Assembly (NCBI GenBank): GCA_028283825.1 | Contig: JAPWJW010000001.1 | Coordinates: 1,054,001 to 1,118,000 of the forward strand | Origin: Azospirillaceae bacterium | GTDB taxonomy: Bacteria; Pseudomonadota; Alphaproteobacteria; Azospirillales; Azospirillaceae | Direction of reading: 5' to 3' | Length of the DNA stretch: 64,000 bases | Shown: positions 13,569-55,836 of the stretch, piece after piece | Position numbering within the stretch: the stretch's first letter is position 1 | Layout: each line of letters opens with the position of its first letter | The notes under the pieces: model-generated | Database searches by the model: none | The model's input: only the letters and a program-made list of their open reading frames with translations | Told to the model about the DNA's origin: nothing | Position numbers and translations under genes: made by a program

Positions 13569-13697
13569 CCCTCAAGCGCCGGGCGTCGACATCCGCCGGC
13601 TTGGCTGATCCTCGGTTTCCAGTCCGCTAACGCTTCCCGGAAACCTCCGGCGGACGCGTCGCATCCTACAGCGGCATGAAGCCATGCTTCATGCCGC
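13569..13697 (-). repeat. Four-hairpin dispersed element, copy A
   Basis: Member of the ~130-nt element family described in the findings. Read on the minus strand: hairpin 1 at 13671-13697 (12-bp perfect arms), then TGTAGGATGCGAC, then the pair GGTTTCC/GGAAACC (13614-13620 with 13639-13645), then GCCGGCGGAT and a terminal CGCCCGGCGCTTGAGGG. The stop of the LysR gene (13689-13691) is inside hairpin 1, so the element starts within the last codons of a same-strand gene. Confidence 0.85.
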
Positions 13698-14612
13698 CGC
13701 GTCGGTCCAGCGCTGGCGCGACAGCCGGTCGGCCAGGAACGTGGCCAGCGCCTCCACCTTGGCGGGGCGGTTGCGCAGGCTGGGGGTGACGAAATAGACG
13801 CCGCCGGACGGGAGCTTCCACTGCGGCAGGATGGTCACCAGGCGGCGGTCGGCCAGGTAGGGGGCGGCGATGAACTCCGGCAGTTCCGCGATGCCGATGC
13901 CCTCCAGCACGGTGGGCAGCAGGGCATCGACGTTGGTCACCCGCAGGGGGCCGGTGGGGGCCACCGTCGCCTCCTGCCCATCGGGGCCGGTGAAACGCCA
14001 CACGTCCTGGCGGGCGCGGTAGGCGTAGCCCAGGCAATGATGGGCGCGCAGTTCGTCCGGATGTTGCGGCAGGCCATAGCGCGCGATGTAGCTGGGGGCG
14101 GCCACGATGCCCCGGCCCATGGGGCACAGGCGGCGCGCCACCAGGGACGAGGCGTCCTCCATCACCGCGATGCGCAGGGCGGCGTCGAAACCGTCGCCCA
14201 CCAGGTCCACCTGGGCGTCGCTCAGGTGCAGATCCACCGTCACCTGGGGATATTGCCGGAAGAAGGCCGGCATCAGCGGCGCCACCCAGCGCAGGCCGAA
14301 GGACATGGGCACGGCCAGGCGGATGGTGCCGCGCGGGGTGGTGGACAGTTCGCGGGCGGAATTCTCCGCCTCCTCCGCCTCGGCATAGACGCGGGCGGCG
14401 CGCTCCGCCACCGTACGGCCCAGGTCGGTCAGGGCCAGGCTGCGCGAGGTGCGGTTGAACAGGCGGCCGCCCAGCCGCTCCTCCAACCGGCTGACGGCCC
14501 GCGACACGGTGGCGACCGAGACGTTCAGGGCGCGGGCCGCCCCGGCGAAGGACCGTTCCTCCGCCACCTTGGCCATCATGGCCAGCCCTTCGAAATCCGG
14601 TAACGACGACAT
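13689..14612 (-). CDS. LysR-family transcriptional regulator
   Basis: 307 residues. N-terminal winged HTH (MMAKVAEERSFAGAARAL, then VSVATVSRAVSRLEERLG) with the LysR effector-binding fold after residue 90. The SFAGAARALNVSVATVSRAV type resembles the large alphaproteobacterial/proteobacterial group that often controls neighbouring oxidoreductases. The zinc alcohol dehydrogenase follows on the same strand after element copy A, so it is a possible target. The TGA stop falls in the first hairpin of that element. Confidence 0.9.
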   Translation of the reverse strand: MSSLPDFEGLAMMAKVAEERSFAGAARALNVSVATVSRAVSRLEERLGGRLFNRTSRSLALTDLGRTVAERAARVYAEAEEAENSARELSTTPRGTIRLAVPMSFGLRWVAPLMPAFFRQYPQVTVDLHLSDAQVDLVGDGFDAALRIAVMEDASSLVARRLCPMGRGIVAAPSYIARYGLPQHPDELRAHHCLGYAYRARQDVWRFTGPDGQEATVAPTGPLRVTNVDALLPTVLEGIGIAELPEFIAAPYLADRRLVTILPQWKLPSGGVYFVTPSLRNRPAKVEALATFLADRLSRQRWTDAAA

Positions 14613-14680
14613 CGTCCAATCCGCAACGGTGAAGCCCCATCCTTTCTATTCTGGTGGGGCGCGCTGCGGTGAGCGATTTT

Positions 14681-15694
14681 TTATTCGGGGACTGGCCCCG
14701 TGCTGCCCCGCACCACCAGGCGGTGGGGCAGGGTGATGGAGCGTGCCGCCGCCTGCCGCCCGGCCAGGATGTCCAGCAGCAGGCCCACGGCGGCGCGGCC
14801 GATCTGTTCCATCGGCTGGCTGACGGTGGTCAGCGCCGGGTCCAGGTAGCGGGCGTAGCGGATGTCGTCGAACCCCACCAGCGACACCGCGTCCGGACAG
14901 CGGCGGCCCAGCCGGCGCAGGGCGGCCAGGGCGCCCATGGCCATCTCGTCACTGAAGCAGAACAGGGCGGTGGGGCTGTCGGCCGCCCCGTTCCCCAGCA
15001 GGCTCAGCGTCTCACGCTCGCCGGACTCGACGGAGAAGTCGCCGGTGGCGATGCGCAGGTCCGCTTCCGCGCCGTGCGCTTTCGCGGCGGCATGGACGCC
15101 GGCCAGGCGGTCGCGGCTGATGGGGCTGTCCAGCGCGCCGGTGATGACGCCGATGCGGCGATGGCCCAGGCCGTACAGATGGCCCATGGCCTCGGCCGCG
15201 GCGGCGGCGTTGTCGATATGGGCGCCGGACACGCCCAGGTCGGCGCTGAACTCACAGCCGTTGACCACCGGTGCCGCCGCCCCCTGGCGGGCCACCAGGT
15301 CGGCCAGGGCGTCGGGCAGGCGGTGGCCCAGGAAGACCAGGCCGTCGGCCTCCTTCCGGCGCAGCATGGCGGCGTATTGCTCCTCCCGCTCCGGCGCGTT
15401 GCGGGTGTCACCCAGCAGCACGGAATAACCGGCGGCCTGCGCCGCCTCTTCCGCGCCGCGGATGACGCTGGAGAAGAAGGGGTTGGAGATGTCGGGCACG
15501 GTCACCACGATCTTGGCGCTGCGCAGGGTGCGCAGGCTTTTGGCGGCGTGGTTGGGCTCATAGCCCAGGGCATCCACGGCCACCAGCACCCGTTCGCGCG
15601 TCGCCTCGCTGACGATTTCGGGATTGCTCAGCACGCGGGAAACGGTGGCGGTGGAAACCCGGGCCTTGCGGGCGACGTCTTGGATGGTCGGCAT
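14681..15694 (-). CDS. LacI-family transcriptional repressor
   Basis: 337 residues. Begins with the LacI DNA-binding head (TIQDVARKARVSTATVSRVL, hinge region EPNHAAKSLRT) followed by a periplasmic-binding-like sugar domain (VVTVPDISNPFFSSVIRGAE). Divergent from the Gfo/Idh/MocA operon at 15803 with 108 bases between the starts and a LacI-type operator in the gap (15768-15781). It therefore most likely represses that sugar operon and is relieved by its substrate. Confidence 0.93.
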   Translation of the reverse strand: MPTIQDVARKARVSTATVSRVLSNPEIVSEATRERVLVAVDALGYEPNHAAKSLRTLRSAKIVVTVPDISNPFFSSVIRGAEEAAQAAGYSVLLGDTRNAPEREEQYAAMLRRKEADGLVFLGHRLPDALADLVARQGAAAPVVNGCEFSADLGVSGAHIDNAAAAAEAMGHLYGLGHRRIGVITGALDSPISRDRLAGVHAAAKAHGAEADLRIATGDFSVESGERETLSLLGNGAADSPTALFCFSDEMAMGALAALRRLGRRCPDAVSLVGFDDIRYARYLDPALTTVSQPMEQIGRAAVGLLLDILAGRQAAARSITLPHRLVVRGSTGPVPE

Positions 15695-15767
15695 GATGGG
15701 GGCGAGGGTGCTGTCGAAAGGGTTCCGCTGGCAAGGGTTGCGACCGTGGGGCGGCGCTGTTATTCAA

Positions 15768-15781
15768 TGTAAACGATTTCA
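15768..15781. promoter_or_regulatory. LacI-type operator candidate
   Basis: TGTAAACGATTTCA matches its own reverse complement at 10 of 14 positions around a central CG, the hallmark of LacI/GalR family operators. It lies between the divergent LacI-family gene and the sugar oxidoreductase operon, 22 bases before the latter's start. Confidence 0.65.
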
Positions 15782-15802
15782 TGAACGGGAAAGGCGCCGA
15801 AG

Positions 15803-16915
15803 ATGTCCGACGGACCGCTGCGTATGGCCATGGTGGGCGGTGGCCCGGGCGCCTTCATCGGGCCGGTGCACCGCATGGCGGCCGAGCTGGACGGCCGCAT
15901 CCGGCTGGTGGCAGGGGCCTTCAGCCGCGACGCGGACAAGTCCAGGGCGGCAGCGCTGGGCTATGGCATCGACCCGGCCCGGGCCCATGGCGACTATCGC
16001 CGGATGCTGGCGGCGGAGGCGGCGCGGCCGGACGGCGCCCGGCTGGTGGCCATCGTCACCCCCAACCATCTGCACTTCCCCGTGGCCAAGGCGGCGCTGG
16101 AGGCCGGTTTCCACGTGCTGAGCGACAAGCCCGCCACCGCCACCCTGGAAGAGGCGGTGGAACTGGCGCGGGTGGTGGCGGACAGCGGCCGGCTCTATGG
16201 CCTGACCTACACCTACACCGGCTACCCCATGGTGCGTGAGGCGCGGGCCCTGGTGGCGCGGGGCGACCTGGGCGCCGTGCGCAAGGTGGTGGTGGAATAC
16301 TCCCAAGGCTGGCTGTCGGACGCGGTGGACAGTGCCCAGGCCGCCTGGCGGGCGGACCCGGCGCAGTCGGGCCTGGGTGGCTGTATCGGCGACATCGGGG
16401 TGCACGCCTTCAACATCGCGGAGTTCGTCAGCGGCCTGGCCGTCACCCGGCTGAACGCCGACCTCAATCATGTGGTGGCCGGCCGGTCACTGGATGACGA
16501 CTGCAACATCCTGCTGCGCTTCGGCGATGGCGTGCCGGGGGTGCTGGTTGCCTCCCAGGTGGCGGCGGGCGACCGCAACGGCCTGCGCCTGCGCGTCTAT
16601 GGCAGCCGGGGCGGGCTGGACTGGTGCCATGGGGCGCCGGACGTGCTGACGCTGAACTGGCTGGACCGGCCGACCCAGGTGCTGCACGCCGCCAGTCCCT
16701 ACCTCACCCCGGCGGGGCGGGGGCCGGCGCGCCTGCCCACCGGCCATCCGGAGGGCTTCATCGCCGCCTTCGCCAACATCTACCGCGACTTCGCCGACGC
16801 CATCGCCGGCGGGGCGACCGGGGCGCCGGTGCCCACCATCCAGGACGGCGTGCGCGGCATGGCCTTCGTGGCGCGGGCGGTGGCGGCCAACGGCGCCGGC
16901 TGGGTCGATCTGTGA
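15803..16915 (+). CDS. Gfo/Idh/MocA-family oxidoreductase
   Basis: NAD(P)-dependent sugar or inositol dehydrogenase-like protein, 370 residues. The Rossmann motif [13 protein letters not shown] is at the N-terminus. [11 protein letters not shown] and the catalytic-Lys segment LSDKPATAT are in the expected order, followed by the C-terminal beta-sheet domain ([19 protein letters not shown]). No signal peptide, so cytoplasmic. First gene of a three-gene operon with two TIM-barrel isomerases, under a divergent LacI repressor. Such sets commonly act on inositols or 3-keto sugars; the exact substrate is inference. Confidence 0.9.
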
Positions 16916-16922
16916 AGGGGGC

Positions 16923-17993
16923 ATGACGGCGATGCGCACGATCAAGGGGCCGGGCATCTTCCTGGCGCAGTTCGCGGGCGAGGCCCCGCCCTTCGACACG
17001 CTGGACGGCATCGCCGGCTGGGCGGCGGGGCTGGGATATGCGGGCGTGCAGCTGCCCACCGGGCCCGGCGGCCTCATCGATCTGGAAAAGGCGGCGGAAA
17101 GTGCCGTTTATTGTCAGGAAATCACCGGTAAATTGGCGGCCCACGGCCTAGTGGTGACGGAACTGTCCACCCATCTGCAAGGCCAGCTGGTGGCGGTGCA
17201 TCCGGCCTATGATGCCCTGTTCGACGGCTTCGCCCCGCCGGCGGTGCGGGGCAAACCGGCGGCGCGCCAGGCCTGGGCGATGGAGCAATTGACGCTGGCC
17301 GCCAAGGCCAGCCGCAATTTGGGCCTCAGCGCCCATGCCACCTTCTCCGGCGCCTTGGCCTGGCCATACATGTACCCCTGGCCGCAGCGGCCGGCGGGTT
17401 TGGTGGAGGAGGCGTTCGCCGAACTGGGCCGGCGCTGGCGCCCCATCCTGGACGCCTTCGACGCGGCCGGGGTGGACCTCTGCTTCGAACTGCACCCGGG
17501 GGAGGATCTGTTCGACGGCGCCACCTTCGAGCGTTTCCTGGATGAAGTGGGCCAGCACGCCCGTGCCAATATCCTCTATGATCCCAGCCACTTCGTGTTG
17601 CAGCAGCTGGACTACCTGGCCTTCATCGACCGCTATCACGCCCGCATCCGCGCCTTCCATGTGAAGGATGCGGAGTTCCGGCCCGACGGCCGCGCCGGGG
17701 TCTATGGCGGCTATCTGCCGTGGGTGGAGCGGCCGGGGCGTTTCCGCTCACTGGGCGACGGGCAGGTGGACTTCAAGGCCATCTTCGCCAGGCTGGCCCA
17801 GTACGACTATCCCGGCTGGGCGGTGCTGGAATGGGAATGCGCGCTGAAGCATCCGGAGCAAGGGGCGGCCGAGGGCGCCCCTTTCATCCGCGACCACATC
17901 ATCCGCGTCACCGACCGCGCCTTCGATGATTTCGCGGGCGCTGGCGTTGACCATGCGCTGATCGACACGCTGCTGGGCACGCGCCCGGTGTAA
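16923..17993 (+). CDS. Sugar phosphate isomerase/epimerase-like TIM-barrel protein
   Basis: Xylose-isomerase-like TIM barrel (AP endonuclease family 2 fold), 356 residues, 7 bases after the Gfo/Idh/MocA gene with GAAGGGGG as ribosome site. Typical metal-binding strand ends are visible: CFELHPGEDLFDG, NILYDPSHFVLQ, FHVKDAEF and VLEWEC. These carry the Glu, Asp, His and Glu ligands of IolE/epimerase-type enzymes. Cytoplasmic. Probably isomerises, epimerises or dehydrates the keto-sugar made by the preceding dehydrogenase. Confidence 0.87.
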   Translation: MTAMRTIKGPGIFLAQFAGEAPPFDTLDGIAGWAAGLGYAGVQLPTGPGGLIDLEKAAESAVYCQEITGKLAAHGLVVTELSTHLQGQLVAVHPAYDALFDGFAPPAVRGKPAARQAWAMEQLTLAAKASRNLGLSAHATFSGALAWPYMYPWPQRPAGLVEEAFAELGRRWRPILDAFDAAGVDLCFELHPGEDLFDGATFERFLDEVGQHARANILYDPSHFVLQQLDYLAFIDRYHARIRAFHVKDAEFRPDGRAGVYGGYLPWVERPGRFRSLGDGQVDFKAIFARLAQYDYPGWAVLEWECALKHPEQGAAEGAPFIRDHIIRVTDRAFDDFAGAGVDHALIDTLLGTRPV

Positions 17994-18030
17994 AGAACCA
18001 GAATAGCGAAGAAAAACAGAGGAAACGGGC

Positions 18031-19008: not shown

Positions 19009-19068
19009 TTGTCCCGGTGACAAGGCCGGACGTGCCTTGATGGGGTGGGGGCCTTAAGCTGTCACCCC

Positions 19069-19698: not shown

Positions 19699-19791
19699 CA
19701 CCTCCGAAAGCGACCCTGGCGGCCGGGGCGGTTCCGCGCCATCATCCGGCCCCAAGAAACGCCGGACAAGAAACGCGAAAAAGGGGGCTGC

Positions 19792-20730: not shown

Positions 20731-20828
20731 TTGGCGGCGATCCTGGTAAATTAAGCAAAGTTAACAATCCGCCCACGCTGGCTCAATGCGCTGGGGCCTA
20801 GCGTCCGGCGCCAAGGTGCCCTTGTTGG

Positions 20829-22286: not shown

Positions 22287-22288
22287 AA

Positions 22289-26616: not shown

Positions 26617-26634
26617 TCAAAGGCCCGGGATGCC

Positions 26635-26766
26635 AGCGGCATGAGAATTTGTCTCATGCCGCTGTAGGATGCGACCGCATCCGCCGGAGGTTTCCGGGGA
26701 GCGGAGCGGACTGGAAACCGAGGACAAGCCCAAGCCGGCGGACGCCGGCGCCCGGGGTTTGAGGGG
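26635..26766 (+). repeat. Four-hairpin dispersed element, copy B
   Basis: Begins 19 bases after the RND permease stop. Hairpin 1 is 26635-26646 with 26652-26663 (12-bp perfect arms), then GTAGGATGCGACCGCAT, then GGTTTCC/GGAAACC (26689-26695 with 26713-26719), then GCCGGCGGACGCCGGC and a terminal TTTGAGGGGG. The terminal GAGGGGG lies 11 bases before the response-regulator ATG and may double as its ribosome site. Confidence 0.88.
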
Positions 26767-26778
26767 GCATTTGATCCG

Positions 26779-28834: not shown

Positions 28835-28858
28835 ATTTTCTAGGGCTAGGTCCTCCCG

Positions 28859-28988
28859 CCCTCAAGCGCCGGGCGCCAGCATCCGCTGGCTTGGCTGATC
28901 CTCGACTTTCAGTCCGCTTCGCTCCCGGAAAGTCTCCGGCGGATGCAGTCGCATCCTACAACGGCAGGAGAGTTCCTCTCACGCCGTT
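28859..28988 (-). repeat. Four-hairpin dispersed element, copy C
   Basis: Read on the minus strand. Hairpin 1 (28960-28988, arms near-perfect with two mismatches) is entirely inside the 3' coding end of the DJ-1/PfpI gene, whose TAG stop is the TAG of the conserved TGTAGG. Then comes the pair GACTTTC/GAAAGTC (28904-28910 with 28928-28934), a stem GCCAGC/GCTGGC, and the terminal CGCCCGGCGCTTGAGGG. Confidence 0.87.
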
Positions 28989-29672
28989 GGCGACGATCCT
29001 TTCCAGCGCCTCGAACCGGGGCGCCAACAGGCGGTCGTAAATCTCCTCGACCCGTGCCCGCACCTCATCGCGTGCCAGTTCCGGCCGGCCGCCGGGGAAG
29101 GGCGGGGCGGGCGCGTATTCCAGCATCAGCAGCAGGGCCTCGGCCGCGTCCTGGCCCACCACCTCCGCCGCCACGGTGAAGGCGAAGTCCAGGCCGGCGG
29201 TGACACCGCCGCCGGTGATGATGTCGCCGTCGCGCACCACCCGCGCCGGGTCGGGGATGGCGCCGAACAGGGCCAGCTTGTCCCGCCACGCCCAATGGCA
29301 GGCGGCCCGCCGCCCCGTCAGCAGCCCGGCCGCCGCCAGGATCAGCGACCCGGTGCAGACCGAGGTGACATAACGGGCGCCCGCCGCCAGGCGGCGGATG
29401 TGGGCCATGGTCTCCGCCTCCTCCATCACGGCGGCGACGCCGAAGCCGCCGGGGATGAACAGCAGGTCGCAGGTGTCGATATCGGCCAGCGATTCCGTGT
29501 CGGCGAAGGCAAGCCCCTCGCCTGAGGTCACCGTGCCGCCGGTGGCGGAGGCCACCCGCACCTGCGTGCCGGTCAGGCGGCTGAACACCTGGTGCGGGGC
29601 GGTGAAATCCAGCTGGGTCATCAGCGGAAAGACGAATTCCACAATGGTGAAGGGGCGTTGCGGCTGGTCCAT
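28956..29672 (-). CDS. DJ-1/PfpI-family protein (isonitrile hydratase-like)
   Basis: 238 residues with the class I glutamine-amidotransferase-like fold. The nucleophile elbow is YVTSVCTGSLILAAAGLL (catalytic Cys) and the start FVFPLMTQLDFTAPHQVF is the signature of the isocyanide hydratase (InhA) group. An acidic helper residue is likely in the N-terminal segment. The last ten residues (NGVRGTLLPL) and the stop codon are encoded by hairpin 1 and TGTAGG of element copy C, so the element seems to have replaced or extended the original C-terminus. Divergent from a GlxA-type regulator. Confidence 0.88.
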   Translation of the reverse strand: MDQPQRPFTIVEFVFPLMTQLDFTAPHQVFSRLTGTQVRVASATGGTVTSGEGLAFADTESLADIDTCDLLFIPGGFGVAAVMEEAETMAHIRRLAAGARYVTSVCTGSLILAAAGLLTGRRAACHWAWRDKLALFGAIPDPARVVRDGDIITGGGVTAGLDFAFTVAAEVVGQDAAEALLLMLEYAPAPPFPGGRPELARDEVRARVEEIYDRLLAPRFEALERIVANGVRGTLLPL

Positions 29673-29772: not shown

Positions 29773-30726
29773 ATGCCGCGCACCATCGCCTTCCTGGCCT
29801 TCCCCGGTTTCCAACTGCTGGATGTCAGCGGCCCGCTGGCGGCGTTCGAGATCGCCGGCCGGTACGCGCGCCAGCCCTATGACATCCGAATCATGGCCCT
29901 GCACCCGGGGCCCGTCGCCAGTTCATCGGGCGCCTGCCTGCTGGCGGAGAGGCTGGTGGACGCGGGCGCCATCGACACGCTGCTGATCTCGGGTGGCGAT
30001 GGCATCAACGACGCCTGGCGGGATGAGGCGCAGGTGGCTTACGTCCGGTCGGTGGCAGGGCGGGCGCGGCGGCTGGCCAGCGTCTGTTCCGGCACCTTCC
30101 TGCTGGCGGCGGCGGGTTTGCTGGACGGGCGGCGGGCCACCACCCACTGGTGCCGCACCGTGGAATTCGGCCGCCGTTTCCCCGCCGTGACGCTGGAGGC
30201 CGACCGCATCTTCATCCGCGACGGCGCCTATTGGACCTCCGCCGGCATCACCGCCGGCATGGATCTGGCGCTGGCCCTGATCGCCGAGGACCATGGCGAG
30301 GCCATCGCCCGCCGCACCGCCCGCCAGCTGGTGATGTATTACCGCCGCCAGGGCGGGCAGTCGCAATTCTCCGCCCTGCTGGACATGCAGCCGGTGGGCA
30401 GCCGCTTCGGCACCCTGCTGGCCTGGATGCGGGAGAACCTGGAGCAACCCCTGAAGGTGGAACACCTGGCCGACCGCGCGGCCATGAGCCCCCGTAACTT
30501 CGCCCGCGCCTTCGCGGCGGAGGTGGGGGTGACGCCGGCCAAGGCGGTGGAGCAGCTACGGCTGGAAACCGCCCGCGCCCGGGTTGAGGAAGGACCGGAA
30601 CCCATAGACCGTATCGCCACCGAAACGGGTTTCGGCGATGGCGAGCGCATGCGCCGCGCCTTCCTGCGCGCCTACGGCGTCGCCCCCCAGGCCATCCGTC
30701 GCGTGGCGCGGGGGATGGCGGCGTGA
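29773..30726 (+). CDS. GlxA-family transcriptional regulator (DJ-1-like domain plus AraC HTH)
   Basis: 317 residues. The N-terminal DJ-1/PfpI-like domain (FLAFPGFQLLDVSGPLAAFE, with SVCSGTFLLAAAGLLDGR) is probably a ligand-binding version. The C-terminal AraC-type double HTH follows (LEQPLKVEHLADRAAMSPRN, then RIATETGFGDGERMRRAF). It is divergent from the DJ-1/PfpI enzyme gene across 100 bases, the usual layout for a GlxA regulator and its target. Confidence 0.93.
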   Translation: MPRTIAFLAFPGFQLLDVSGPLAAFEIAGRYARQPYDIRIMALHPGPVASSSGACLLAERLVDAGAIDTLLISGGDGINDAWRDEAQVAYVRSVAGRARRLASVCSGTFLLAAAGLLDGRRATTHWCRTVEFGRRFPAVTLEADRIFIRDGAYWTSAGITAGMDLALALIAEDHGEAIARRTARQLVMYYRRQGGQSQFSALLDMQPVGSRFGTLLAWMRENLEQPLKVEHLADRAAMSPRNFARAFAAEVGVTPAKAVEQLRLETARARVEEGPEPIDRIATETGFGDGERMRRAFLRAYGVAPQAIRRVARGMAA

Positions 30727-30738
30727 AGGCCAAAAACC

Positions 30739-30863
30739 AGCGGCAAGACCCTCTTGCCGCTGTAGGTCCCGACCGGGACCGCCGGAAGTTTCCGGGGAAC
30801 GTAGTGGACTGGAAACTGAGGATCAGCCAAGCCGCCGGATGGCGGCGCCCGGCGCTTGAGGGG
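30739..30863 (+). repeat. Four-hairpin dispersed element, copy D
   Basis: Begins 13 bases after the GlxA-type stop. Hairpin 1 AGCGGCAAGA/TCTTGCCGCT (30739-30748 with 30752-30761), then TGTAGGTCCCGACCGGGAC, the pair AGTTTCC/GGAAACT (30787-30793 with 30811-30817), the stem GCCGCC-GGAT-GGCGGC and the terminal CGCTTGAGGGG. Fills the gap between convergent genes. Confidence 0.88.
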
Positions 30864-30867
30864 ACAA

Positions 30868-38248: not shown

Positions 38249-38257
38249 GGTCAACCC

Positions 38258-38385
38258 ACTGGCATGGGTTCAGCCCATGCCAGTGTAGGCCCCGACTGGG
38301 GCCGCCGGAGTTTTGCGGGAAGCTTAGCGGACTGCAAAACGAGGATCAGCCAAGCGGCCGGGTGGCCGCGCCCGGCGCTTGAGGG
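38258..38385 (+). repeat. Four-hairpin dispersed element, copy E
   Basis: Begins 9 bases after the chemoreceptor stop. Hairpin 1 ACTGGCATGGG/CCCATGCCAGT (38258-38268 with 38274-38284), TGTAGGCCCCGACTGGGGC, the pair GTTTTGC/GCAAAAC (38310-38316 with 38334-38340), the stem GCGGCC-GGGT-GGCCGC and the terminal CGCCCGGCGCTTGAGGG. Confidence 0.88.
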
Positions 38386-38505
38386 ACGGTATGGATCGTT
38401 TCGGAAAAGTTACACGAAGGGTTGTTTTTAAAAGTTAACTTGGGTGCGGCGGGCGATTTGGCACACTCGGTGGCGGTATAGCCTTCCGAATAGGGGTCGC
38501 CGCCT

Positions 38506-46150: not shown

Positions 46151-46199
46151 AGCACAGGCATCTTGGCAAGAATTTATGGAACGACTAATCTACAAGTCG

Positions 46200-46326
46200 G
46201 CGACATGGATCATCCATGTCGCGCTAGGACGCGACGGCGTCCGCCGGAGCGTTTTGGGGAGCCGAAGGCGGACTGAAACGCGAGGAAGCCCCAAGCCGCC
46301 GGATGGCGGCGCCCGGGGTTTGAGGG
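46200..46326 (+). repeat. Four-hairpin dispersed element, copy F
   Basis: The only copy not following a same-strand gene: it lies between divergent MFS and TetR genes, pointing to the TetR gene. Hairpin 1 GCGACATGGA/TCCATGTCGC (46200-46209 with 46213-46222), CTAGGACGCGACGGCGTCC, the pair GCGTTT/AAACGC (46249-46254 with 46276-46281), the stem GCCGCC-GGAT-GGCGGC and the terminal GGTTTGAGGG. Confidence 0.85.
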
Positions 46327-46346
46327 CGGCTGTAAGGAGAACACCC

Positions 46347-46958: not shown

Positions 46959-46962
46959 AAGG

Positions 46963-46996
46963 AAAACGCCCTCCCGGTGGACCGGAAGGGCGTTTT
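46963..46996 (+). terminator. Rho-independent terminator after TetR
   Basis: AAAACGCCCT ... AGGGCGTTTT hairpin with an inner CCGGT/ACCGG stem, ending in a T-run, 4 bases after the TetR stop. Confidence 0.85.
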
Positions 46997-47030
46997 ATGC
47001 ATGCGGCATTTGATCGTGACCGCTCAAATG

Positions 47031-47152
47031 CCCCTCAATCGCCGGCGGTCGCATCCGCGACCTTAGGCTTCCTCGTTCCGCCCTGCGGTGCTCACTCCGG
47101 GGCCGGCAGTCGCCGGCCGCCAGCAGCACGAGTCCAAGTCTCGTGCTGCTGG
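47031..47152 (-). repeat. Four-hairpin dispersed element, copy G (diverged)
   Basis: Read on the minus strand, starting 7 bases after the RND permease stop. Hairpin 1 CCAGCAGCACGAG/CTCGTGCTGCTGG (47120-47132 with 47140-47152, 13 bp), stem GGCCGGCGACTGCCGGCC, CCCGGAG, then CGAGGAAGCC, stem GGTCGCGGATGCGACC and the terminal TTGAGGGG. The central GTTTTC-type pair is not conserved here; overall order and end sequences are. Confidence 0.7.
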
Positions 47153-47159
47153 TATAGGC

Positions 47160-50100
47160 TCACTCCGCCGCCTGCACCTCCAGGCGATGGGGCGAGGCGT
47201 GTCCGATCTCGGTCGCCTCACCCGCCTTGACCTTGAACCACAGGGCGTAGAGGGCCGGCAGGAACACCAGGATCAGCACCGTGCCCACGGCGGTGCCGCC
47301 GATCAGCACGTAGGCCATCGATCCCCAGAACACCGACTGGGTCAGGGGGATGAAGGCCAGCACGGCGGCCAGCGCCGTCAGGATGACGGGCCGCGCCCGC
47401 TGCACCGTCGCCTCGATCACGGCATGGTAGGGCGACAGCCCTTCCTCCTGGTTGGTGTGGATCTGGCCGATCAGGATCAGGGTGTTGCGCATCAAGATGC
47501 CCGACAGACCAATGAGGCCCAGGATGGCGTTGAAGCCGAAGGGCTGGTGGAAGATCAGCAGGACGGGTACGGCACCCACCAGGCCCAGGGGTGCGGTCAG
47601 GAACACCATGCCCATGGCGGCCAGCGACCGCGTCTGCAACACCAGGACCAGCAGGGTCAGGGCGATCATGACCGGGAAGATGGGGGCCAGGGCGGCGTTG
47701 GCCTTGCCCGCCTCCTCGATATTGCCGCCCATCTCGATGCGATAGCCCGCCGGCAGGTTGGCGATGATGGGGGCCAGGGCCTGCTGGATGGCCATGGAGA
47801 CCGGCGGCGGTTGCAGGGCGTCGTCGATGTCGCACTGGACGGTGACGGTGGGCACCCGGTCGCGGCGGCGCAGGATGGGGTCCTCCGCCCGCACCTCGAC
47901 ATGGCCGATCTGGCTCAAGGGCACCAGGCGACCGTCGGCGCTGGTCAGGGTCATGTCGGCCAGGCGGGCGGGGTCCAGGCGGTTGGGCCCGGCGCTGCGC
48001 GCCGTCACCTGCACCACGCGGATATCCTCGCGCACCTGGGTCACCGGGGCGCCGGTCAGCAGGAACTGAAGCTGCTGGGCCGCGTCACTGGGGTTCAGGC
48101 CGATCAGGCGCAGGCGGTCCTGGTCCAGCACGAAGTGCAGGGTGGGGGCGCGCTCACCCCAATCCTGGTTCACCTGGCGGGTGTCGGGATTGGCGCGCAT
48201 GACGGCCTGCACCTGGTCGGCGATGCCGCGCAAGGTGTCCACGTCCGGGCCCATGACGCGGAACATGACGGGGAAACGCGAGGGCGGACCGAACACCAGT
48301 TGTGAGACGCGCACCCGCGCCTCCGGCACCAAACCGTCGGCGATGGCCTGGCGCAGGTTCAGTTTCAGCCGGTCGCGCGCCTTGTCGTCGGGGGTCAGCA
48401 CGATCAGCTTGGCGAAGGACGGGTCGGGCAGTTCGGGATTGTAGGACAGGAAGAAGCGCGGGGCGCCCTGGCCGACATAGGTGGAGACGATCCGGGATTC
48501 CGGCTGTTGGCGCAGCCAGTCCTCCACCTTCTTGGACGCCGCACTGGTGGCCTCGATGCTGGTGCCCTCGGGCATCTGCACCTCCGCCATGATTTCCGGC
48601 CGGTCGGACGTGGGGAAGAACTGCTGCTTGACGAAGCCCATGCCGAAGCCGGCCAGCAGGAAGACGCCGACCACGGCCGCGGCCACCCGGCCCCGGTGGT
48701 CCACCGCCCAGGTTACCAGGCGGCGCAGTTGCTGATAGCGCGGGGTGGCGTAGATGGCGGCGTGGCCGCCCGCCACCGGCGTGATGTTGGGCAGCAGCTT
48801 CACGCCCAGGTACGGGGTGAACACCACGGCCACCACCCATGAGGTGATCAGCGCGAAACCCACGATCCAGAAGATGTTGCCGGCATACTCACCGGCGGTG
48901 GAGCGGGCGAAGCCCACCGGCGTGAAGCCGATGATGGTGACCAGGGTGCCGGACAGCATGGGGGCGGCCGTATGGCTCCAGGCATAGGCGGCGGCCTTCA
49001 GGCGGTCGTACCCTTCCTCCAGCTTCACCACCATGATTTCGATGGCGATGATGGCGTCGTCCACCAGCAGGCCCAATGAGATGATCAGGGCGCCCAGGGT
49101 CACGCGGTCGAAGGCGCGGCCCGTCACCATCATGATGACGAAGACGGCGGCCAGGGTCAGCGGCACGGCGGCGGCCACCACGATGCCGACGCGCCAGCCC
49201 AGGCTGGCCAGGCTGACGACCATCACCACGCCCAATGCCACGAAGAACTTCAGCATGAACTCATCCACCGACTCGTGGATGTTCACCCCCTGGTCGCTGA
49301 CCTTGCTCATGGTCAGGCCCAGGGGCAGGTCGGCGGCGATCTTCTGTTCTTCCGCGTCCAGCGCCGTGCCCAAATCCAGGCCGTTCCAGCCTTCCTGCAT
49401 CACCACACCCAGCGCCAGGGCGGGGTCGCCGTTGTTGCGGATCAGGAAGGTAGCCGGGTCTTCATACCCCCGCTTCACCTCCGCCACGTCCGACAGCTTG
49501 AAGGTGCGGCCGTTGGCGACGACGGGGGTGTCGCGGATCTTCTCCAAATCGTCATAGGCGCCGTCCAGGCGGATGAAGACCTGGGGGCCGTCGGTGTCGA
49601 TGGACCCGGCCGGCGTCACGCTGTTCTGGTGGGCCAGGGCGTCGAAGATGTCGCGGGCGCCGATGCCCAGGGTGGCCAGGCGGGCGTAGCTGAAGTCCAC
49701 GAAGATGCGCTCGGGCCGCTCGCCCAGGATGTCCACCTTCTTCACGCCCGGCACATGCAGCAGGCGCTGGCGCAGGGTTTCCGCCTCACGCGTCAGCTGG
49801 CGGGCCGGCATGCCCGGGGCCTTCACGGCATAGACGGCGAAGTCGGTGTCGGAATACTCATCATTGACGAAGGGACCCAGGGCGCCGGTGGGCAGGGTGC
49901 GCGCCTCATCCCCCAGCTTCTTGCGCGCCTGGTAGAACTGTTCCGGCACGGCGGACGGCGGGGTCTTGTCCTGCAGCGACAGGGTCATCAGCACCATGCC
50001 GGGCCGGGTGAAGGTTTCCACCTTGTCGTACCAACGCAGTTCCTGCAGGCGTTTCTCCAGCGGCTCCGCCACCAGATCCTGCATTTCCTGGGCGGTGGCG

Positions 50101-50267
50101 CCGGGCCAGACGGCGCTGACCGTCAGCACCTTGATGGTGAAGGCGGGGTCCTCGGCGCGGCCCAGCTTCAGGAAGGCGAAGCCGCCGGCCACGGTGATGG
50201 CGATCAGCAGGAACAGGGTGATGGCGCGTTCACGGACCGCCAGGGCCGACAGGTTGAAGCCGCTCAT
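47160..50267 (-). CDS. RND efflux permease
   Basis: 1035-residue, 12-TM proton antiporter. Starts MSGFNLSALAVRERAITLF; loop signature GRAEDPAFTIKVLTVSAVWPG marks a branch of RND pumps distinct from the AcrB/MdtB type in the first operon. TM4 contains the acidic pair LGLLVDDAIIAIEIMV, and the second half has GLIGLSGILMRNTLILIGQI. Adaptor stop and permease start overlap by 4 bases (ATGA). The operon lacks its own outer-membrane gene on this strand; the divergent NodT gene at 52371 probably supplies it. Confidence 0.94.
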   Translation of the reverse strand: MSGFNLSALAVRERAITLFLLIAITVAGGFAFLKLGRAEDPAFTIKVLTVSAVWPGATAQEMQDLVAEPLEKRLQELRWYDKVETFTRPGMVLMTLSLQDKTPPSAVPEQFYQARKKLGDEARTLPTGALGPFVNDEYSDTDFAVYAVKAPGMPARQLTREAETLRQRLLHVPGVKKVDILGERPERIFVDFSYARLATLGIGARDIFDALAHQNSVTPAGSIDTDGPQVFIRLDGAYDDLEKIRDTPVVANGRTFKLSDVAEVKRGYEDPATFLIRNNGDPALALGVVMQEGWNGLDLGTALDAEEQKIAADLPLGLTMSKVSDQGVNIHESVDEFMLKFFVALGVVMVVSLASLGWRVGIVVAAAVPLTLAAVFVIMMVTGRAFDRVTLGALIISLGLLVDDAIIAIEIMVVKLEEGYDRLKAAAYAWSHTAAPMLSGTLVTIIGFTPVGFARSTAGEYAGNIFWIVGFALITSWVVAVVFTPYLGVKLLPNITPVAGGHAAIYATPRYQQLRRLVTWAVDHRGRVAAAVVGVFLLAGFGMGFVKQQFFPTSDRPEIMAEVQMPEGTSIEATSAASKKVEDWLRQQPESRIVSTYVGQGAPRFFLSYNPELPDPSFAKLIVLTPDDKARDRLKLNLRQAIADGLVPEARVRVSQLVFGPPSRFPVMFRVMGPDVDTLRGIADQVQAVMRANPDTRQVNQDWGERAPTLHFVLDQDRLRLIGLNPSDAAQQLQFLLTGAPVTQVREDIRVVQVTARSAGPNRLDPARLADMTLTSADGRLVPLSQIGHVEVRAEDPILRRRDRVPTVTVQCDIDDALQPPPVSMAIQQALAPIIANLPAGYRIEMGGNIEEAGKANAALAPIFPVMIALTLLVLVLQTRSLAAMGMVFLTAPLGLVGAVPVLLIFHQPFGFNAILGLIGLSGILMRNTLILIGQIHTNQEEGLSPYHAVIEATVQRARPVILTALAAVLAFIPLTQSVFWGSMAYVLIGGTAVGTVLILVFLPALYALWFKVKAGEATEIGHASPHRLEVQAAE

Positions 50268-51397: not shown

Positions 51398-51426
51398 GGG
51401 GGCGCTCCATCGCAAGGGGAGCCCCG

Positions 51427-51471
51427 AATTTAATGACGAGTGACGAATTCGTCAATCCGTCACTCGTCATT
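51427..51471 (-). promoter_or_regulatory. Adaptor-permease promoter with TetR operator
   Basis: Arms AATGACGAGTGACG (51432-51445) and CGTCACTCGTCATT (51458-51471) are exact reverse complements across 12 bases. Inside, TTGACG (minus strand, 51455-51450) is a -35, and TAAATT (51432-51427) a -10 at 17 bases. An inner palindrome TGACGAATTCGTCA spans 51441-51454. The GTGACG-N12-CGTCAC core recurs at 52295-52318. Confidence 0.75.
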
Positions 51472-51494
51472 CGTTACCTAGCGCAAACCACATA

Positions 51495-52121: not shown

Positions 52122-52291
52122 GAAGCGTTACCCGCAACAGATGTAAACAGGGGGATGCCTTGTCCAGGGCTAAGGCGCTGCCCTTATTCCTGGCCGGCGG
52201 TCCATGCCATCATATAGGCGCACAGCCATGCCGGCCCCGCATATGCGGAATGGCATGCGCGGCCTGGGGGTGTGGGTCCCTGTATAAGGGC

Positions 52292-52331
52292 ATGGTGACG
52301 CATTGACAATATCGTCACCATGACGTTATGC
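52292..52331 (+). promoter_or_regulatory. NodT promoter with TetR operator
   Basis: ATGGTGACG (52292-52300), 12 bases, CGTCACCAT (52313-52321): exact inverted arms with the same GTGACG-N12-CGTCAC core and related spacer (CATTGACAATAT here; GATTGACGAATT at the other site read on its minus strand). The spacer holds TTGACA (-35, 52303-52308), with TTATGC (52326-52331) 17 bases on as -10. Confidence 0.75.
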
Positions 52332-52370
52332 AACATAATTATCAGTCTTCAAATGATTGGACCCCTACCG

Positions 52371-53849
52371 ATGAGCCCGCTCCGCCCCGCCCACGCCACC
52401 CTCCGCCACCGCCTGCGCGTTGGCCTGACGATGGCGGCACCGTTGGCGCTGCTGCTCTCGGGTTGCGCGGCGGTGGGTCCTGACTTCCAGGCGCCCACCG
52501 CCAAGCTGGACCCTTTCCACAATGAGGACGCCGTGGCGGCGCGCGCCGCCAAGACACCGGCCCCGCCGCTGGACACCTGGTGGGAAGGCTTCAACGATCC
52601 GGTGCTGACCCGCCTGGTCACCCGCGCGCTGGACCAGAACCTGGATCTCGCCGCCAGCATGCAGCGGGTGGAACAGGCGCGCGCCGTGGCCAAGGGGGCG
52701 GGCGCCAAGCTGATGCCCAAGGGCGGCCTGGACGTCTCCATGGAACCCATCCACCAGTCCGTCGAAAGCCCGCTGGGCGCGCTGGGCAATGCCGTCGCCG
52801 GCCCCGGCTTCGATCCCAACCAGACCGTCTATGACGTGGGCGTTTCCGCCAGCTGGGAAGTCGACCTGTTCGGCGGCCTGCGCCGGGGGGCCGAGGCGGC
52901 CGACGCCGAATTCCGCGTGGCCGAGGCCCTGCACGCCGGTGAGCGTGTGTCCGTCGCGGCGGAGGTGGCCGACGCTTATCTTCAGGTGCGTGGCGACCAG
53001 GCCCGCATCGCTGTGGCCGAGGAACAGGTGCGCACCGACCAGCACCTGCTGGATCTGGTGAAGGAGCAGTTCAGCCGCGGCATCGTCACCGACCGCCAGA
53101 TCGCCCAGGCGGAGGCGCTGCTGTCCCACGCCCGCGCCTCCTTCCAGCCGCTGCGCATCGACCTTGAGATGCAGTTGAACAAGCTGGACGTGCTGATGGG
53201 CGCGCAGCCCGGCACCTATGCCGCCGAACTGCGGGCCGTGGCCGACATCCCCGCCGTCCCGGCGGTGGGCGGCGGCGACCAGCCGGTGGACATGTTGCGC
53301 CGCCGTCCCGACATCATCGCCGCCGAGACACGCCTGATGGTCACCAACGCCCGGATCGGCCAGGCGGTGGCGGAATATTATCCCAAGCTGTCCCTGTCCG
53401 GCGTGGTGGGCTTCGAAAGCCTGGCCGCCGGCGACATGTTCCAGGGCAACACCTTCCAGCCCCTGGCCGTGTTCGGCCTGCGCTGGCGCCTGTTCGACTT
53501 CGGCCGCGTGGACGCCGAGGTGGAACAGGCCAAGGGGGCCGATGCCGAGGCGCTGATCCGCTATCGCCAGTCGGTGCTGCGGGCCGCCCAGGACGTGGAA
53601 AACGCCTTCGTCGCCCTGGTGCAGTGGGAGGCGCACGCCGACGAACTGCGCCGTGAGGTCGATGCCCTGACCCGCGCCCGCGACAGCTCGCAGGAAGCCT
53701 ATCGCGGCGGCCTGATCGCCCTGACCGACGTGCTGGACGCCGACCGCCAGCTGCTGGCCGCCCAGGACGAACTGGCCCGCACCCGCGCCGACGCCGCCCG
53801 CGCCGCCGTCGCCTCCTTCCGCGCGCTCGGTGGCGGCTGGAAGGCTTGA
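52371..53849 (+). CDS. RND efflux outer-membrane lipoprotein, NodT family
   Basis: 492 residues from ATG 52371 (an in-frame ATG at 52353 is also possible). Signal and lipobox LLLSGC, then AAVGPDFQAP, the family signature, and two outer-membrane efflux domains (SASWEVDLFGGLRRG, DMLRRRPDIIAAE, FGLRWRLFDFGR, ENAFVALVQWEAHADEL). Divergent from tetR-adaptor-permease and sharing the same operator motif, so it is very likely the channel of that second pump. Confidence 0.92.
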   Translation: MSPLRPAHATLRHRLRVGLTMAAPLALLLSGCAAVGPDFQAPTAKLDPFHNEDAVAARAAKTPAPPLDTWWEGFNDPVLTRLVTRALDQNLDLAASMQRVEQARAVAKGAGAKLMPKGGLDVSMEPIHQSVESPLGALGNAVAGPGFDPNQTVYDVGVSASWEVDLFGGLRRGAEAADAEFRVAEALHAGERVSVAAEVADAYLQVRGDQARIAVAEEQVRTDQHLLDLVKEQFSRGIVTDRQIAQAEALLSHARASFQPLRIDLEMQLNKLDVLMGAQPGTYAAELRAVADIPAVPAVGGGDQPVDMLRRRPDIIAAETRLMVTNARIGQAVAEYYPKLSLSGVVGFESLAAGDMFQGNTFQPLAVFGLRWRLFDFGRVDAEVEQAKGADAEALIRYRQSVLRAAQDVENAFVALVQWEAHADELRREVDALTRARDSSQEAYRGGLIALTDVLDADRQLLAAQDELARTRADAARAAVASFRALGGGWKA

Positions 53850-54220
53850 GTTAGGGGCTTGTGATCACGGTGGTCGTGTTCGATCACCGTGACCGTCAAC
53901 CAGGACGTTGTGGTGATGCGATTGATGGGGAGATCGTCGTCGACCATCGCCAGGGCGTCGCGCGCCAGCGTTACCGATATCGGAATTCGGTTCCTTCCGG
54001 TAAGCCGATGTGCCGTTTTGCAGAAATTATTGCTGGATCAATGGTTTGCCGGCATTCGGCGTCGAGGCGGCCTGCTTTGGCTCGGCGGAAATAACACGCA
54101 TGGCGTGCTGTCATTGGAATAAATTCTCTACAAGATAGCTAAATACAACTATCAGTCGAACTTCATATGCGATAAAACCAGCCGGCTTCAGTCCGCCTTC
54201 ACCCCCTTAAGGAGGTTCGC
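53850..54220. other. Gap between NodT and the CheD-like gene
   Basis: 371 bases. Near the start is an imperfect hairpin (TCACGGTG/CACCGTGA around 53875) without a T-run, possibly ending the NodT transcript. The last 100 bases are AT-rich and probably hold the promoter of the CheD-like gene. Small open frames at 53861-54122 have no ribosome site and no recognisable product. Confidence 0.5.
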
Positions 54221-54700
54221 ATGGCCATTGTCCCTGCTGGTTTCGACAAATTGTCGGCATTGGGTAAATTGAGCACGGACACGGTGATCACGTCCGGATT
54301 GGGCAATTGCATAGGCATCGTCTGTATCAACACCGCCAAGCAATCCATGGCGATCGCCCATTACAACACCCTGTTCACCGACGGGCTGATGCTGAAAGAT
54401 GCCGCCCGCGTTGCCGCTTCCCTGACCAAATTGCGGAGATGGCTGGAAGGCCAGACCACCGCCACGAGCTTCCAGATCGGCGTCGGGGGCTGCTGGTACG
54501 ACGTGGCCGCCTCAAACGAGCCCATGCGCCATGCACTGTTGGTGGGGCTCACCAACGTATTCCAGAACGAGCCGACGGTATGGGGACAAACCGTCCGTTA
54601 TGTCGGCGGCCGTCTGGAGGGCAGCCCCAACGCCGACTGGGTCAACAATCTGGACTGGTCCAAAGCCGGCACCAGCATTCCCTATTCGCAATTGCGGTGA
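54221..54700 (+). CDS. Orphan CheD-like glutamine deamidase-fold protein
   Basis: 159 residues, excellent ribosome site (AAGGAGG, 8 bases before ATG). I found no close family by eye, but the segment TSGLGNCIGIVCINTAKQS followed by MAIAHYNTL lines up with the CheD core (TLGLGSC ... GGxxH). The Thr, Cys and His are spaced exactly as in the CheD catalytic triad: Thr24, Cys30 and His47, compared with Thr21, Cys27 and His44 in Thermotoga CheD. The rest is divergent: FQIGVGGCWYDVAAS matches a CheD-like central strand, the tail (NADWVNNLDWSKAGTS) has no match. It stands alone, not in a chemotaxis operon. No signal peptide. Could be a receptor deamidase, or a CheD-fold effector acting on another target. 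Confidence 0.6.
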   Translation: MAIVPAGFDKLSALGKLSTDTVITSGLGNCIGIVCINTAKQSMAIAHYNTLFTDGLMLKDAARVAASLTKLRRWLEGQTTATSFQIGVGGCWYDVAASNEPMRHALLVGLTNVFQNEPTVWGQTVRYVGGRLEGSPNADWVNNLDWSKAGTSIPYSQLR

Positions 54701-54723
54701 CCGCGCGTGGCGGCACCCGCTGG

Positions 54724-55635
54724 TCAGCTACAAAAAAACGCCAGGAATTCGGACAGCACCTCTTGCGGCCGTTCTTCCTGTAGTGTGTGGCCGCAATCCA
54801 GCGCGCGGCCGCGCACGTCGGTCGCCTTGTCCCGCCAGGTGGCCAGCACGTCGTACAACTGACCCACCGTGCCCTGGGCGCCCCATAGCGCCAGCAGGGG
54901 GACCGTCACCCGGGCGTTGGCATCCTCCGCGTCATGGCGCAGGTCGATGGTGGCGGCGGCGCGATAATCCTCGCAGATGGCGTGGCGGGTGGCCGGGTCC
55001 CGGTAACAGCGCAAATATTCGGCGAAGGCCGCCGGCTCCGTGGCGCCGGGCGTTCTGCACTGTCCGTCGATGTGGGTGCGCAGGAAGAATTCCGGGTCGG
55101 CGGCGATCAGCCGTTCGGGCAGGGGGGCCGGCTGGATCAGGAAGAACCACCAGAAGTACCGGGTGGCGAATTCCTGGTTGGTCTTGGCGTACATGGTGGC
55201 GGTGGGGGCGATGTCCAGCAACGCCAGGCGGCTGACGGCATCCGGGTGATCCAGCGCCATGCGGTGGGCGACACGCGCCCCCCGGTCATGCCCCGCCACG
55301 GCGTAGCGCTCATGACCCAGGACCCGCATCATTTGAACCTGGTCCAGCGCCATGGCGCGCTTGGCATAGGCGGCGTGGTCCGGCCCGCCCTCCGGTTTGG
55401 TGCTATCGCCATAACCGCGCAGGTCGGGTGCCACCACGGTGAAGCGCTGCGCCAGCGCCGGCGCGATCTTGCGCCAGGTGACGTGGGTCTGCGGATGACC
55501 ATGCAGCAGCAACAGCGGGGGCCCATTTCCGGCCGTCGCCACCCGCAGGGTGACGCCCGTGTCCACGGTGACATCGGCCAGGCGGAATCCGGACAGGAAG
55601 GGGCTGTCGCCCCGCTGGGTGATGGTCGTGCTCAT
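54724..55635 (-). CDS. Alpha/beta hydrolase (haloacetate-dehalogenase-like)
   Basis: 303 residues from ATG 55635 (in-frame starts at 55647 and 55686 are possible; no strong ribosome site). Strand-turn HGHPQTHVTW (oxyanion), nucleophile elbow GHDRGARVAHR with Asp as nucleophile, and His in ALDCGHTLQEE. The GHDRGA and DLRGYGDS motifs match fluoroacetate dehalogenases, but the expected His-Trp pair that binds the halide reads Trp-Trp (FWWFFLIQP). So the substrate is probably not fluoroacetate; an epoxide or ester is as likely. Confidence 0.85.
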   Translation of the reverse strand: MSTTITQRGDSPFLSGFRLADVTVDTGVTLRVATAGNGPPLLLLHGHPQTHVTWRKIAPALAQRFTVVAPDLRGYGDSTKPEGGPDHAAYAKRAMALDQVQMMRVLGHERYAVAGHDRGARVAHRMALDHPDAVSRLALLDIAPTATMYAKTNQEFATRYFWWFFLIQPAPLPERLIAADPEFFLRTHIDGQCRTPGATEPAAFAEYLRCYRDPATRHAICEDYRAAATIDLRHDAEDANARVTVPLLALWGAQGTVGQLYDVLATWRDKATDVRGRALDCGHTLQEERPQEVLSEFLAFFCS

Positions 55636-55708
55636 GGGGCTCAGCATGCCTTGGTATGGGCGCCGGCGGTGATGCAAGGTCGGCATAAATCCATAAGGGG
55701 CGTTTGTT

Positions 55709-55836
55709 CCCTCAGGCGCCGGGCGCCGCCATCCGGCGGCTTGGCTTCCTCAGTTTTCAGTCCGCTACGCTCCCCAAAAACTTCCGGCGACCGCGGTCGC
55801 GGTCTATGGCGGCGGCAGGCGAAGCCTCCCACCGCC
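55709..55836 (-). repeat. Four-hairpin dispersed element, copy H
   Basis: Read on the minus strand, beginning at the TAG stop of the antiporter gene (55838-55836). Hairpin 1 is imperfect (GGCGG ... CCGCC arms, 55811-55836), followed by CATAGACCGCGACCGCGGTC, the pair AGTTTT/AAAACT (55752-55757 with 55777-55782), the stem GCCGCC-GGAT-GGCGGC and the terminal CGCCCGGCGCCTGAGGG. Confidence 0.85.

Follow-up and report, generated by a model that had tools for sequence, protein, structure and literature searches.

The locus and its eight copies

A small, dispersed, non-coding hairpin repeat occurs in eight copies in a 64,000-nucleotide (nt) stretch of DNA (the window; contig JAPWJW010000001.1 of assembly GCA_028283825.1, positions 1,054,001 to 1,118,000) from an Azospirillaceae bacterium, a Nitrospirillum-type, nitrogen-fixing soil bacterium with a genome of 7.16 Mb in 5 contigs. 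A first-pass annotation of the window had described the repeat as a unit of four hairpins with covarying stems, placed at gene ends, and had left its nature between an element of the 3' untranslated region (3'-UTR) and a mobile unit resembling a miniature inverted-repeat transposable element (MITE). All eight copies are present on the strands and at the positions proposed, align over their whole length with a mean column identity of 77%, and fold, one by one, better than their dinucleotide shuffles do on average (z -2.5 to -6.0; 0-3 of 200 shuffles equal the copy). A covariance model built from the eight re-finds all of them at 81-148 bits, these being its own training rows. The copies (c1 to c8) and their terminal features are as follows, with HP for hairpin and bit scores from model R1.

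13566..13701, minus strand: copy c1, type I, without HP5 (138.0 bits)
26632..26768, plus strand: copy c2, type I (148.2 bits)
26769..26776, plus strand: 5' arm of HP5, its other half missing, at the 3' end of c2 (sequence compared with HP5-bearing copies)
28856..28991, minus strand: copy c3, type I (144.5 bits)
30736..30865, plus strand: copy c4, type I (142.8 bits)
38255..38388, plus strand: copy c5, type I (145.2 bits)
46196..46329, plus strand: copy c6, type I (118.3 bits)
47029..47153, minus strand: copy c7, with the type II core known from Niveispirillum and Azospirillum (81.4 bits; alignments)
46998..47028, minus strand: HP5 and 3' end of c7, then TAA at 46995-46997 (sequence)
55706..55839, minus strand: copy c8, type I (136.2 bits)

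Seven of the eight copies (c1, c2, c3, c4, c5, c7 and c8) start no more than about 15 nt past a same-strand stop codon or overlap it, as had been noticed earlier. HP1 of c1 overlaps the final codons of a LysR-type gene (13689-14576, minus; gene call and Pfam LysR), c2 starts 15 nt past the stop of an AcrB-type gene (end 26616; Pfam ACR_tran), and the gene upstream of c3 (28956-29672, minus) terminates within the copy, at the TAG of TGTAGG. Copy c4 occupies the gap between convergent genes ending at 30726 (plus) and 30868 (minus), c5 lies 6 nt past the stop of a chemoreceptor gene (Pfam), c7 lies 6 nt past that of an AcrB-type gene (47160-50267, minus; Pfam), and c8 takes in, with its first bases, the TAG at which a Na/H exchanger gene ends (55836-57374, minus; Pfam). 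The exception, c6, lies between divergent genes by the gene calls; an alternative, earlier start of the downstream open reading frame, at 46176, would put it inside that gene.

Anatomy and subtypes of the element

Results for the window's own genome come from 60 stretches (1.264 Mb), 21 of them picked near the window or for known copies. Model R1 gives 114 matches in these at E 0.01, of which 104 copies were kept once the weakest and the overlapping ones had been taken out. The full form, of about 165 nt, reads TACC-HP1-HP2-HP3-HP4-TGAGGG-HP5-GGTA. The four-hairpin plan first proposed thus holds for the order HP1 to HP4 and is incomplete in that many copies bear a fifth hairpin after GAGGG; within the window HP5 is complete in c7 and half present in c2. 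Terminal inverted repeats of the form TRCC...GGYA bound many HP5-bearing copies at both ends. HP5 is present in 23, 27 or 38 of about 104 own-genome copies, depending on which of three detection rules is applied, and an automatic stem rule divides the 104 into 46 with HP1 only, 33 with HP1 and HP5, 20 with the core only and 5 with HP5 only.

Two subtypes can be told apart. Type I, that of the Nitrospirillum genus and of the other seven window copies, is marked by a long HP3 whose internal loop is a symmetric GGA/GGA, whereas type II, common in other genera and represented in the window by c7, has in most cases a short HP3. The HP2 loop is of CGAC type, and HP4 follows the pattern GCC AA G(four variable)C GGAU G(four variable)C GCCC GGC. 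Unpaired letters of the HP2-HP4 core are largely conserved (the CGAC loop, the GGAU loop, the AA/GCCC internal loop and TGAGG); HP1 and HP5, compared by eye, vary in sequence from lineage to lineage.

Some arrangements stand apart from the single full copy. At L061:18010-18315 (own contig C1) three core copies follow one another head to tail, each repeat unit being about 104 nt long, and similarly close copies occur in genomes G384, G124 and G069. In four core-only copies (L060:8050, L093:8044, L060:6816 and L096:19016) the TGAGG end lies within about 30 nt of a downstream gene start, and in one such copy this purine-rich end is positioned like a ribosome-binding site.

Placement beside stop codons

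Genes were called with a hexamer program trained on this genome and applied also to other genera (994 genes in the 1.264 Mb), and placement was evaluated on the first 107 of the 114 matches, less three overlapping copies and one at a stretch edge. The resulting 103 copies comprise 52 between convergent genes, 30 in tandem gaps in the sense orientation, 18 in tandem gaps in antisense and 3 between divergent genes, against a background of 933 gaps of which 162 are convergent, 604 tandem and 167 divergent. A stop codon lies within 10 nt of 71 of the 103, where random positions in the same gaps would give 37.3, and in gaps with at least 80 spare nt the figures are 30 of 48 and 3.6; a start codon lies within 10 nt in 4 of 51 cases. 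The bias to 3' gene ends that the window had suggested is therefore confirmed on about 104 own-genome copies, and it recurs in other genera: in Niveispirillum (31 copies, 19 convergent and 1 divergent) 24 of 31 lie within 15 nt of a stop, in Azospirillum and two more genera 18 of 22 (8 further copies lie at a locus edge), and outside the Azospirillaceae 3 of 6. Some of these loci look orthologous (L125/L126, L132/L141, L148/L150), so that the counts from other genera are not all independent.

The adjacency is partly accounted for by a preference for the trinucleotide TNA, at which, as described below, HP5-bearing copies commonly sit. When copies were compared with a random TNA in the reconstructed empty gap (95 of the 104 copies were covered), 31 of 46 lay by the stop in gaps of at least 80 nt where 11.5 were expected, and 71 of 95 against 49.0 in all gaps, so random choice of TNA accounts for only part of the effect. 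Antisense tandem copies adjoin the stop by their 3' end, at a median of 5 nt, which makes stop adjacency independent of strand; tandem sense and antisense copies number 6 and 5 in Niveispirillum and 6 and 4 in the Azospirillum group, and the pooled ratio, own genome included, is 42 to 27 (z about 1.8, not significant). Among 82 same-strand cases there are 13 in which the gene stops within the element, and the end of the protein is then supplied by the element.

Empty sites, target duplication and the search for a partner

That the repeat might be a mobile, MITE-like unit is supported by empty sites, by its terminal inverted repeats and by a 3-bp target duplication. Relatives at 82-84% identity retain much of the gene order around the window without most of the copies. 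Judged by the distance between flanks, the sites of c2 (5 of 5 relatives with both flanks), c3 (5 of 5), c5 (2 of 2) and c8 (3 of 3) are empty. Copy c7 occurs in relatives G006 and G002 and not in G001, and for c1, c4 and c6 no relative compared showed both flanks together. At the site of c7 (46998-47153) the same-site copies of two relatives (L193, L205) have the HP1 position and HP5 in common with it and differ in core type, which would reflect either replacement of the core or independent insertions at one stop codon.

Closer comparisons, at 93-95% identity, show individual events. Locus L199 of genome G003 carries a clean insertion, a net 132 nt relative to three empty relatives, and at L208 of G001 about 165 nt including HP5 replace about 9 nt. 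At L228 of G006 a stop codon is accompanied by a core-only copy; the corresponding place in G001 holds 24 nt of other sequence. The L199 copy (3539-3672) separates, in frame, the start codon of a pilin-like gene on the opposite strand from its N-terminal segment and may be translated as part of the leader.

HP5-bearing copies commonly sit between two copies of a 3-bp TNA. Flanking 3-mers are identical in 11 of 27 such copies of the own genome (permutation p 0.00016, the offset having been chosen by an earlier scan of the same copies), and where TNA stands on both sides, in 13 copies, the middle base agrees in 11. In other genera it agrees in 25 of 29 testable copies (permutation p <1e-5); this test used 78 rows from 71 loci, with the left pattern in 51 rows and the right in 34, and an end pattern formulated after the flanks had been read. 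The ends and target of the element are thus defined. Elements of the IS1031 group of the IS5 family make 3-bp TNA duplications.

A scan for larger units bounded by the same ends gave 58 loose candidates, 35 in the own stretches and 23 in relatives; among the former both ends fall outside called genes in L107 and L073 alone. Four loci were rejected as larger units: insertions of an IS1182-like and an IS110-type element split a copy at L078 and L107, respectively, L239 has ordinary-looking genes inside, and L073 covers five called genes. Among the 23 candidates in relatives the screen covered L239, and an earlier own-genome scan had given L091 and L114 as further candidates. At L078:14640-16320 (own contig C3) a full copy flanked by TCA and TCA has its HP1 loop interrupted by an insertion sequence with a 468-aa transposase, and at L107:7611-8920 (own contig C4) a type II copy flanked by TAA and TAA has HP4 interrupted by one with a 321-aa transposase; the IS1182-like and IS110-like names are readings of the proteins, without a database result. 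Hairpins of the element have thus been hit by two unrelated insertion sequences.

A possible role at mRNA 3' ends

The 3'-UTR role first proposed stands as far as the bias to 3' gene ends goes; a strand-specific role is not established, as the stop may be faced by either end and tandem copies are divided 30 sense to 18 antisense. Its variant as a terminator fails: of the 104 copies a single one has TTTT no more than 20 nt from the 3' end and none has TTTTT, so the element itself is no intrinsic terminator. A separate terminator-like hairpin with a T-run follows the element at two aligned sites (L240/L213 and L228). Repetitive extragenic palindromic (REP) sequences of E. coli that lie no more than 15 nt from a stop are reported to stall ribosomes (PMC12306157, PMC5082802), which makes effects of the element on upstream genes plausible; a benefit at mRNA 3' ends is possible.

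It is rather unlikely that such a benefit explains the family as a whole, that is, that the repeat is a host-serving 3'-UTR RNA element whose hairpins halt exonucleases, ribosomes or RNA polymerase and whose copies are retained for that. Stop adjacency in several genera, the position between stop and terminator-like hairpin at aligned sites and an excess of G-U over A-C in the stems (see below) would all suit this explanation, as would one compensatory pair change between orthologous L240 and L213, the near-identity of L230 and L223, and the finding that three of the six sites compared are common to G001 and G006. However, the own genome has 30 sense and 18 antisense tandem copies and the other genera 6 and 5, and 6 and 4, relatives at 82-94% identity have empty sites, and the relatives show only 11 matches in 1.2 Mb, mostly syntenic with the window and its surroundings. 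The lack of a clear strand preference, the empty sites and the sparseness of copies in relatives argue together against host function as the main cause.

Covariation and fold

Stem covariation, seen earlier by inspection of the eight copies, was upheld on own-genome copies and again in other genera by counts of double changes against shuffles. Two core alignments were used, A6 (48 cores from the own genome and near relatives) and A7 (35 cores, mostly from other genera). Together they draw 83 cores from 173 candidates: of the 87 that passed a similarity filter five were omitted (L093:7112, L060:8050, L230:6008, L193:3324 and L130:1332), and window:47032 was added. In A6 96.7% of 1217 cells pair, and 187 cells show a double change compared with 47.6 +- 5.2 in shuffles and 8-29 when the partner is slid; in A7 95.7% of 796 cells pair, with 149 double-change cells compared with 47.3 +- 4.6. 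Since the shuffles keep the relatedness of the sequences, these figures are not probabilities. The number of pairs showing a double change is a weaker signal (A6, 16 against 12.8 +- 1.3, reached by 6 of 500 shuffles; A7, 15 against 13.0 +- 1.0, reached by 18 of 500). The HP4 motif, found in 68 of 104 copies, comprises 19 distinct stems in which 266 of 272 pairs are Watson-Crick. The outer 3-bp stem of HP4, GCC/GGC, covaries too, and a long-range multibranch pairing proposed by RNAalifold (CGCCGG/CCGGCG) was dropped in its favour.

With one mostly G-U pair excluded, G-U combinations exceed A-C combinations by 28 to 6 in A6 and by 11 to 7 in A7, which favours the top strand as the folded one, and HP3 contains a conserved G-U pair (37 of 45 cells in A6). 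We read the element as having a fold that is maintained on one strand. Covariation could also arise without selection for a fold if the arms of palindromes are homogenised by template switching during replication (quasi-palindrome correction); the near-perfect pairing at the DNA level, as in the Watson-Crick pairs of HP4, and the variation of entire stem blocks between copies are what such correction would leave. As the sole source of the pattern it is nevertheless unlikely, given the excess of G-U over A-C mismatches (marked in A6, only 11 to 7 in A7), the conserved G-U pair of HP3 and the unpaired loop letters kept across genera. Arm-to-arm correction remains a rival for part of the covariation.

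Copy number and taxonomic range

The 39 own-genome stretches taken on a grid and not chosen for content (780 kb) hold 39 copies, or 50 per Mb, from which about 360 copies per genome are extrapolated. Each of 7 genomes of the Nitrospirillum genus has at least 108-150 matches among the matches listed. An exact 17-base piece of the element was met in 56 stretches of GTDB species genomes; at 9 of them, all Nitrospirillum (N. iridis, N. amazonense, N. viridazoti), the model finds full elements (>98 bits), and the remaining 47 are taken as chance; the window's genome would accordingly belong to Nitrospirillum or a close neighbour. At the level of the family, 47 of 82 genomes have matches. Blast against named plasmids found relatives of the element in Azospirillum and Niveispirillum, and type I gave no match in phage or PLSDB plasmid records. 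Density is uneven, the relatives' stretches (L187-L246) having 11 matches in 1.2 Mb, the window 8 copies in 64 kb and the own genome about 50 per Mb.

A 77-nt core model, R3, built mostly from Azospirillum and Niveispirillum, extends the range. Among 385 alphaproteobacterial genomes it finds matches in 34, which belong to 20 families including the own, in a survey that scored the best 12 candidates per genome and in which misses are expected. In a draw across the phylum 13 of 398 genomes match, all 13 of them Alphaproteobacteria, the share of the 398 that lies outside the class not being known. The two draws together give 22 alphaproteobacterial families with relatives. Some of these families have only one to three matches, and where such matches are weak, chance may account for part of them. 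At seven loci read outside the Azospirillaceae (L250-L256) the stem rule finds HP1 in 6 and HP5 in 4, and L252 and L255 also carry TNA-TACC and GGTA-TNA; these features lie outside model R3 and speak against chance matches at these loci.

Comparison with known repeats

Rfam 15 gives no gathering-threshold match in the window, and sub-threshold searches returned only microRNA matches (E up to 5 over 7 kb of the window; E up to 1 at 10 loci). No description of the family appears among the top-ranked open-licence PMC titles and abstracts, a search that did not cover subscription papers. On its ends, target duplication and empty sites we rate the element as working like a MITE, in a repeat family for which no prior description was found.

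A review (PMC10969869) describes bacterial MITEs (ERIC, Correia, RUP, QMITE) as short and mostly intergenic, with some in 3'-UTRs. The present element resembles them in being short, in its many copies, terminal inverted repeats and target duplication, and in lying mostly in intergenic DNA with some copies in 3'-UTRs. It differs from them in combining a TNA duplication and TACC ends with a conserved, covarying three-hairpin core and lineage-specific outer hairpins, in lying against stop codons, in its class-wide range and in having no known parent transposon. Nearest in kind among the published alphaproteobacterial cases met is Br-REP1 of Bradyrhizobium; Br-REP1 and Br-REP2 are 3'-UTR repeats, one of them between convergent genes, and Br-REP1 has three palindromes, the description as far as available mentioning neither terminal repeats nor target duplication (PMC5082802). 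The likeness is one of host class and 3'-UTR placement, whereas the sequences are unrelated, the ATTCC..GGAAT palindrome occurring in 0 of 104 copies here. CIR of Caulobacter is likewise a strictly intergenic alphaproteobacterial repeat and is classed as a MITE in PMC10969869. It takes its name from CcrM sites (GANTC), and it was rejected as an identity, GANTC occurring in 21 of 104 copies and 31.8 shuffled ones, that is, without enrichment. CGTC REPs, single hairpins of 8-9 bp plus a tag, with a stem that begins with AT, are reported to be frequent in alphaproteobacteria including A. lipoferum (PMC3733652). They and the GTAG REPs share the nature of hairpin repeats with the present element; identity with CGTC REPs was rejected, CGTCATTCC being found in 0 of 104 copies and CGTC not being enriched (41 against 45 shuffled).

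Mobilisation as a REP element by a Y1 (RAYT) transposase is very improbable. Hundreds of extragenic copies and, in type I, a GTAG preceding HP2 (GTAG is in 68 of 104 own copies against 37.8 in mononucleotide shuffles) would fit it, but Y1_Tnp (PF01797) at E 0.001 is found in 0 of 7 genomes of the genus while control genomes are positive in 5 of 14, GTAG was not seen at that place in the type II copies examined, and the element has a target duplication, which IS200/IS605-type transposition is not known to produce. A sponge for, or target of, the RNA-binding protein CsrA, suggested by conserved GGA motifs in loops, one within the GGAU loop, is scarcely credible and is refuted for this genome unless its CsrA is too divergent for the PF02599 model, which at E 0.001 has no match among the best 22 own-genome candidates scored and is positive in 3 of 14 control genomes.

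Interpretation

The repeat is very probably a non-autonomous, mobile MITE-like family, spread over the Alphaproteobacteria and settling at gene ends. In its simplest reading it is a selfish element whose transposition needs the TACC/GGTA ends and the folded core, gene ends being tolerated or preferred. A transposase acting in trans would cut at TACC/GGTA and insert at TNA, for which the stops TAA and TGA and their complements TTA and TCA could serve, with an extra preference or selection presumably enriching those TNA sites that lie at stop codons. The top-strand fold, as RNA or single-stranded DNA, would be required for spread or recognised by a partner, a role for which the chances are about even. 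Shorter forms, without HP5 or with the core only, would spread too or derive by loss, and an inserted copy would join the 3'-UTR of the host gene, where secondary effects on the mRNA are possible.

Several points weigh against this explanation. The three sites common to G001 and G006 (L223/L230, L213/L240 and L225/L227) mean that some copies are not young. Matching 3-mers are lacking in 16 of the 27 own HP5-bearing copies, including c7, whose flanks are TAA and CTA, and the 52 copies tested that lack HP5 show no target duplication. No autonomous element with the same ends was recognised in the approximately 2.5 Mb scanned (1.26 own, 1.2 relatives), a minority of each genome. As to the fold, strand-biased deamination or mutation could partly produce the excess of G-U, and 2 of 4 orthologous sets contain one copy in which a helix is broken or altered.

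A stronger form holds that the conserved, covarying core acts as a functional nucleic acid, either RNA or a single-stranded DNA fold, without which a trans-acting recombinase could neither move the element nor place it at stop codons. This form is quite unlikely; if true, the family, mobile across the class, would bring along its own structured scaffold or guide and use gene ends as a "safe" place to land.

In summary, a repeat family is newly named that has hundreds of copies per genome in a nitrogen-fixing genus and relatives throughout the class. For annotation, the gain is that some genes take their stop codons and C-terminal ends from copies (c1, c3 and c8), and landing on the stop side is a natural case of an element whose site avoids harm. 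The family unites transposon ends and a target duplication with an internal fold of structured-RNA-grade covariation, properties that are usually separate. Nucleic-acid structure is known to take part in the transposition of IS200/IS605 and IS110, and the transposase of this family, once identified, would test its part in bacterial transposition beyond the known groups.

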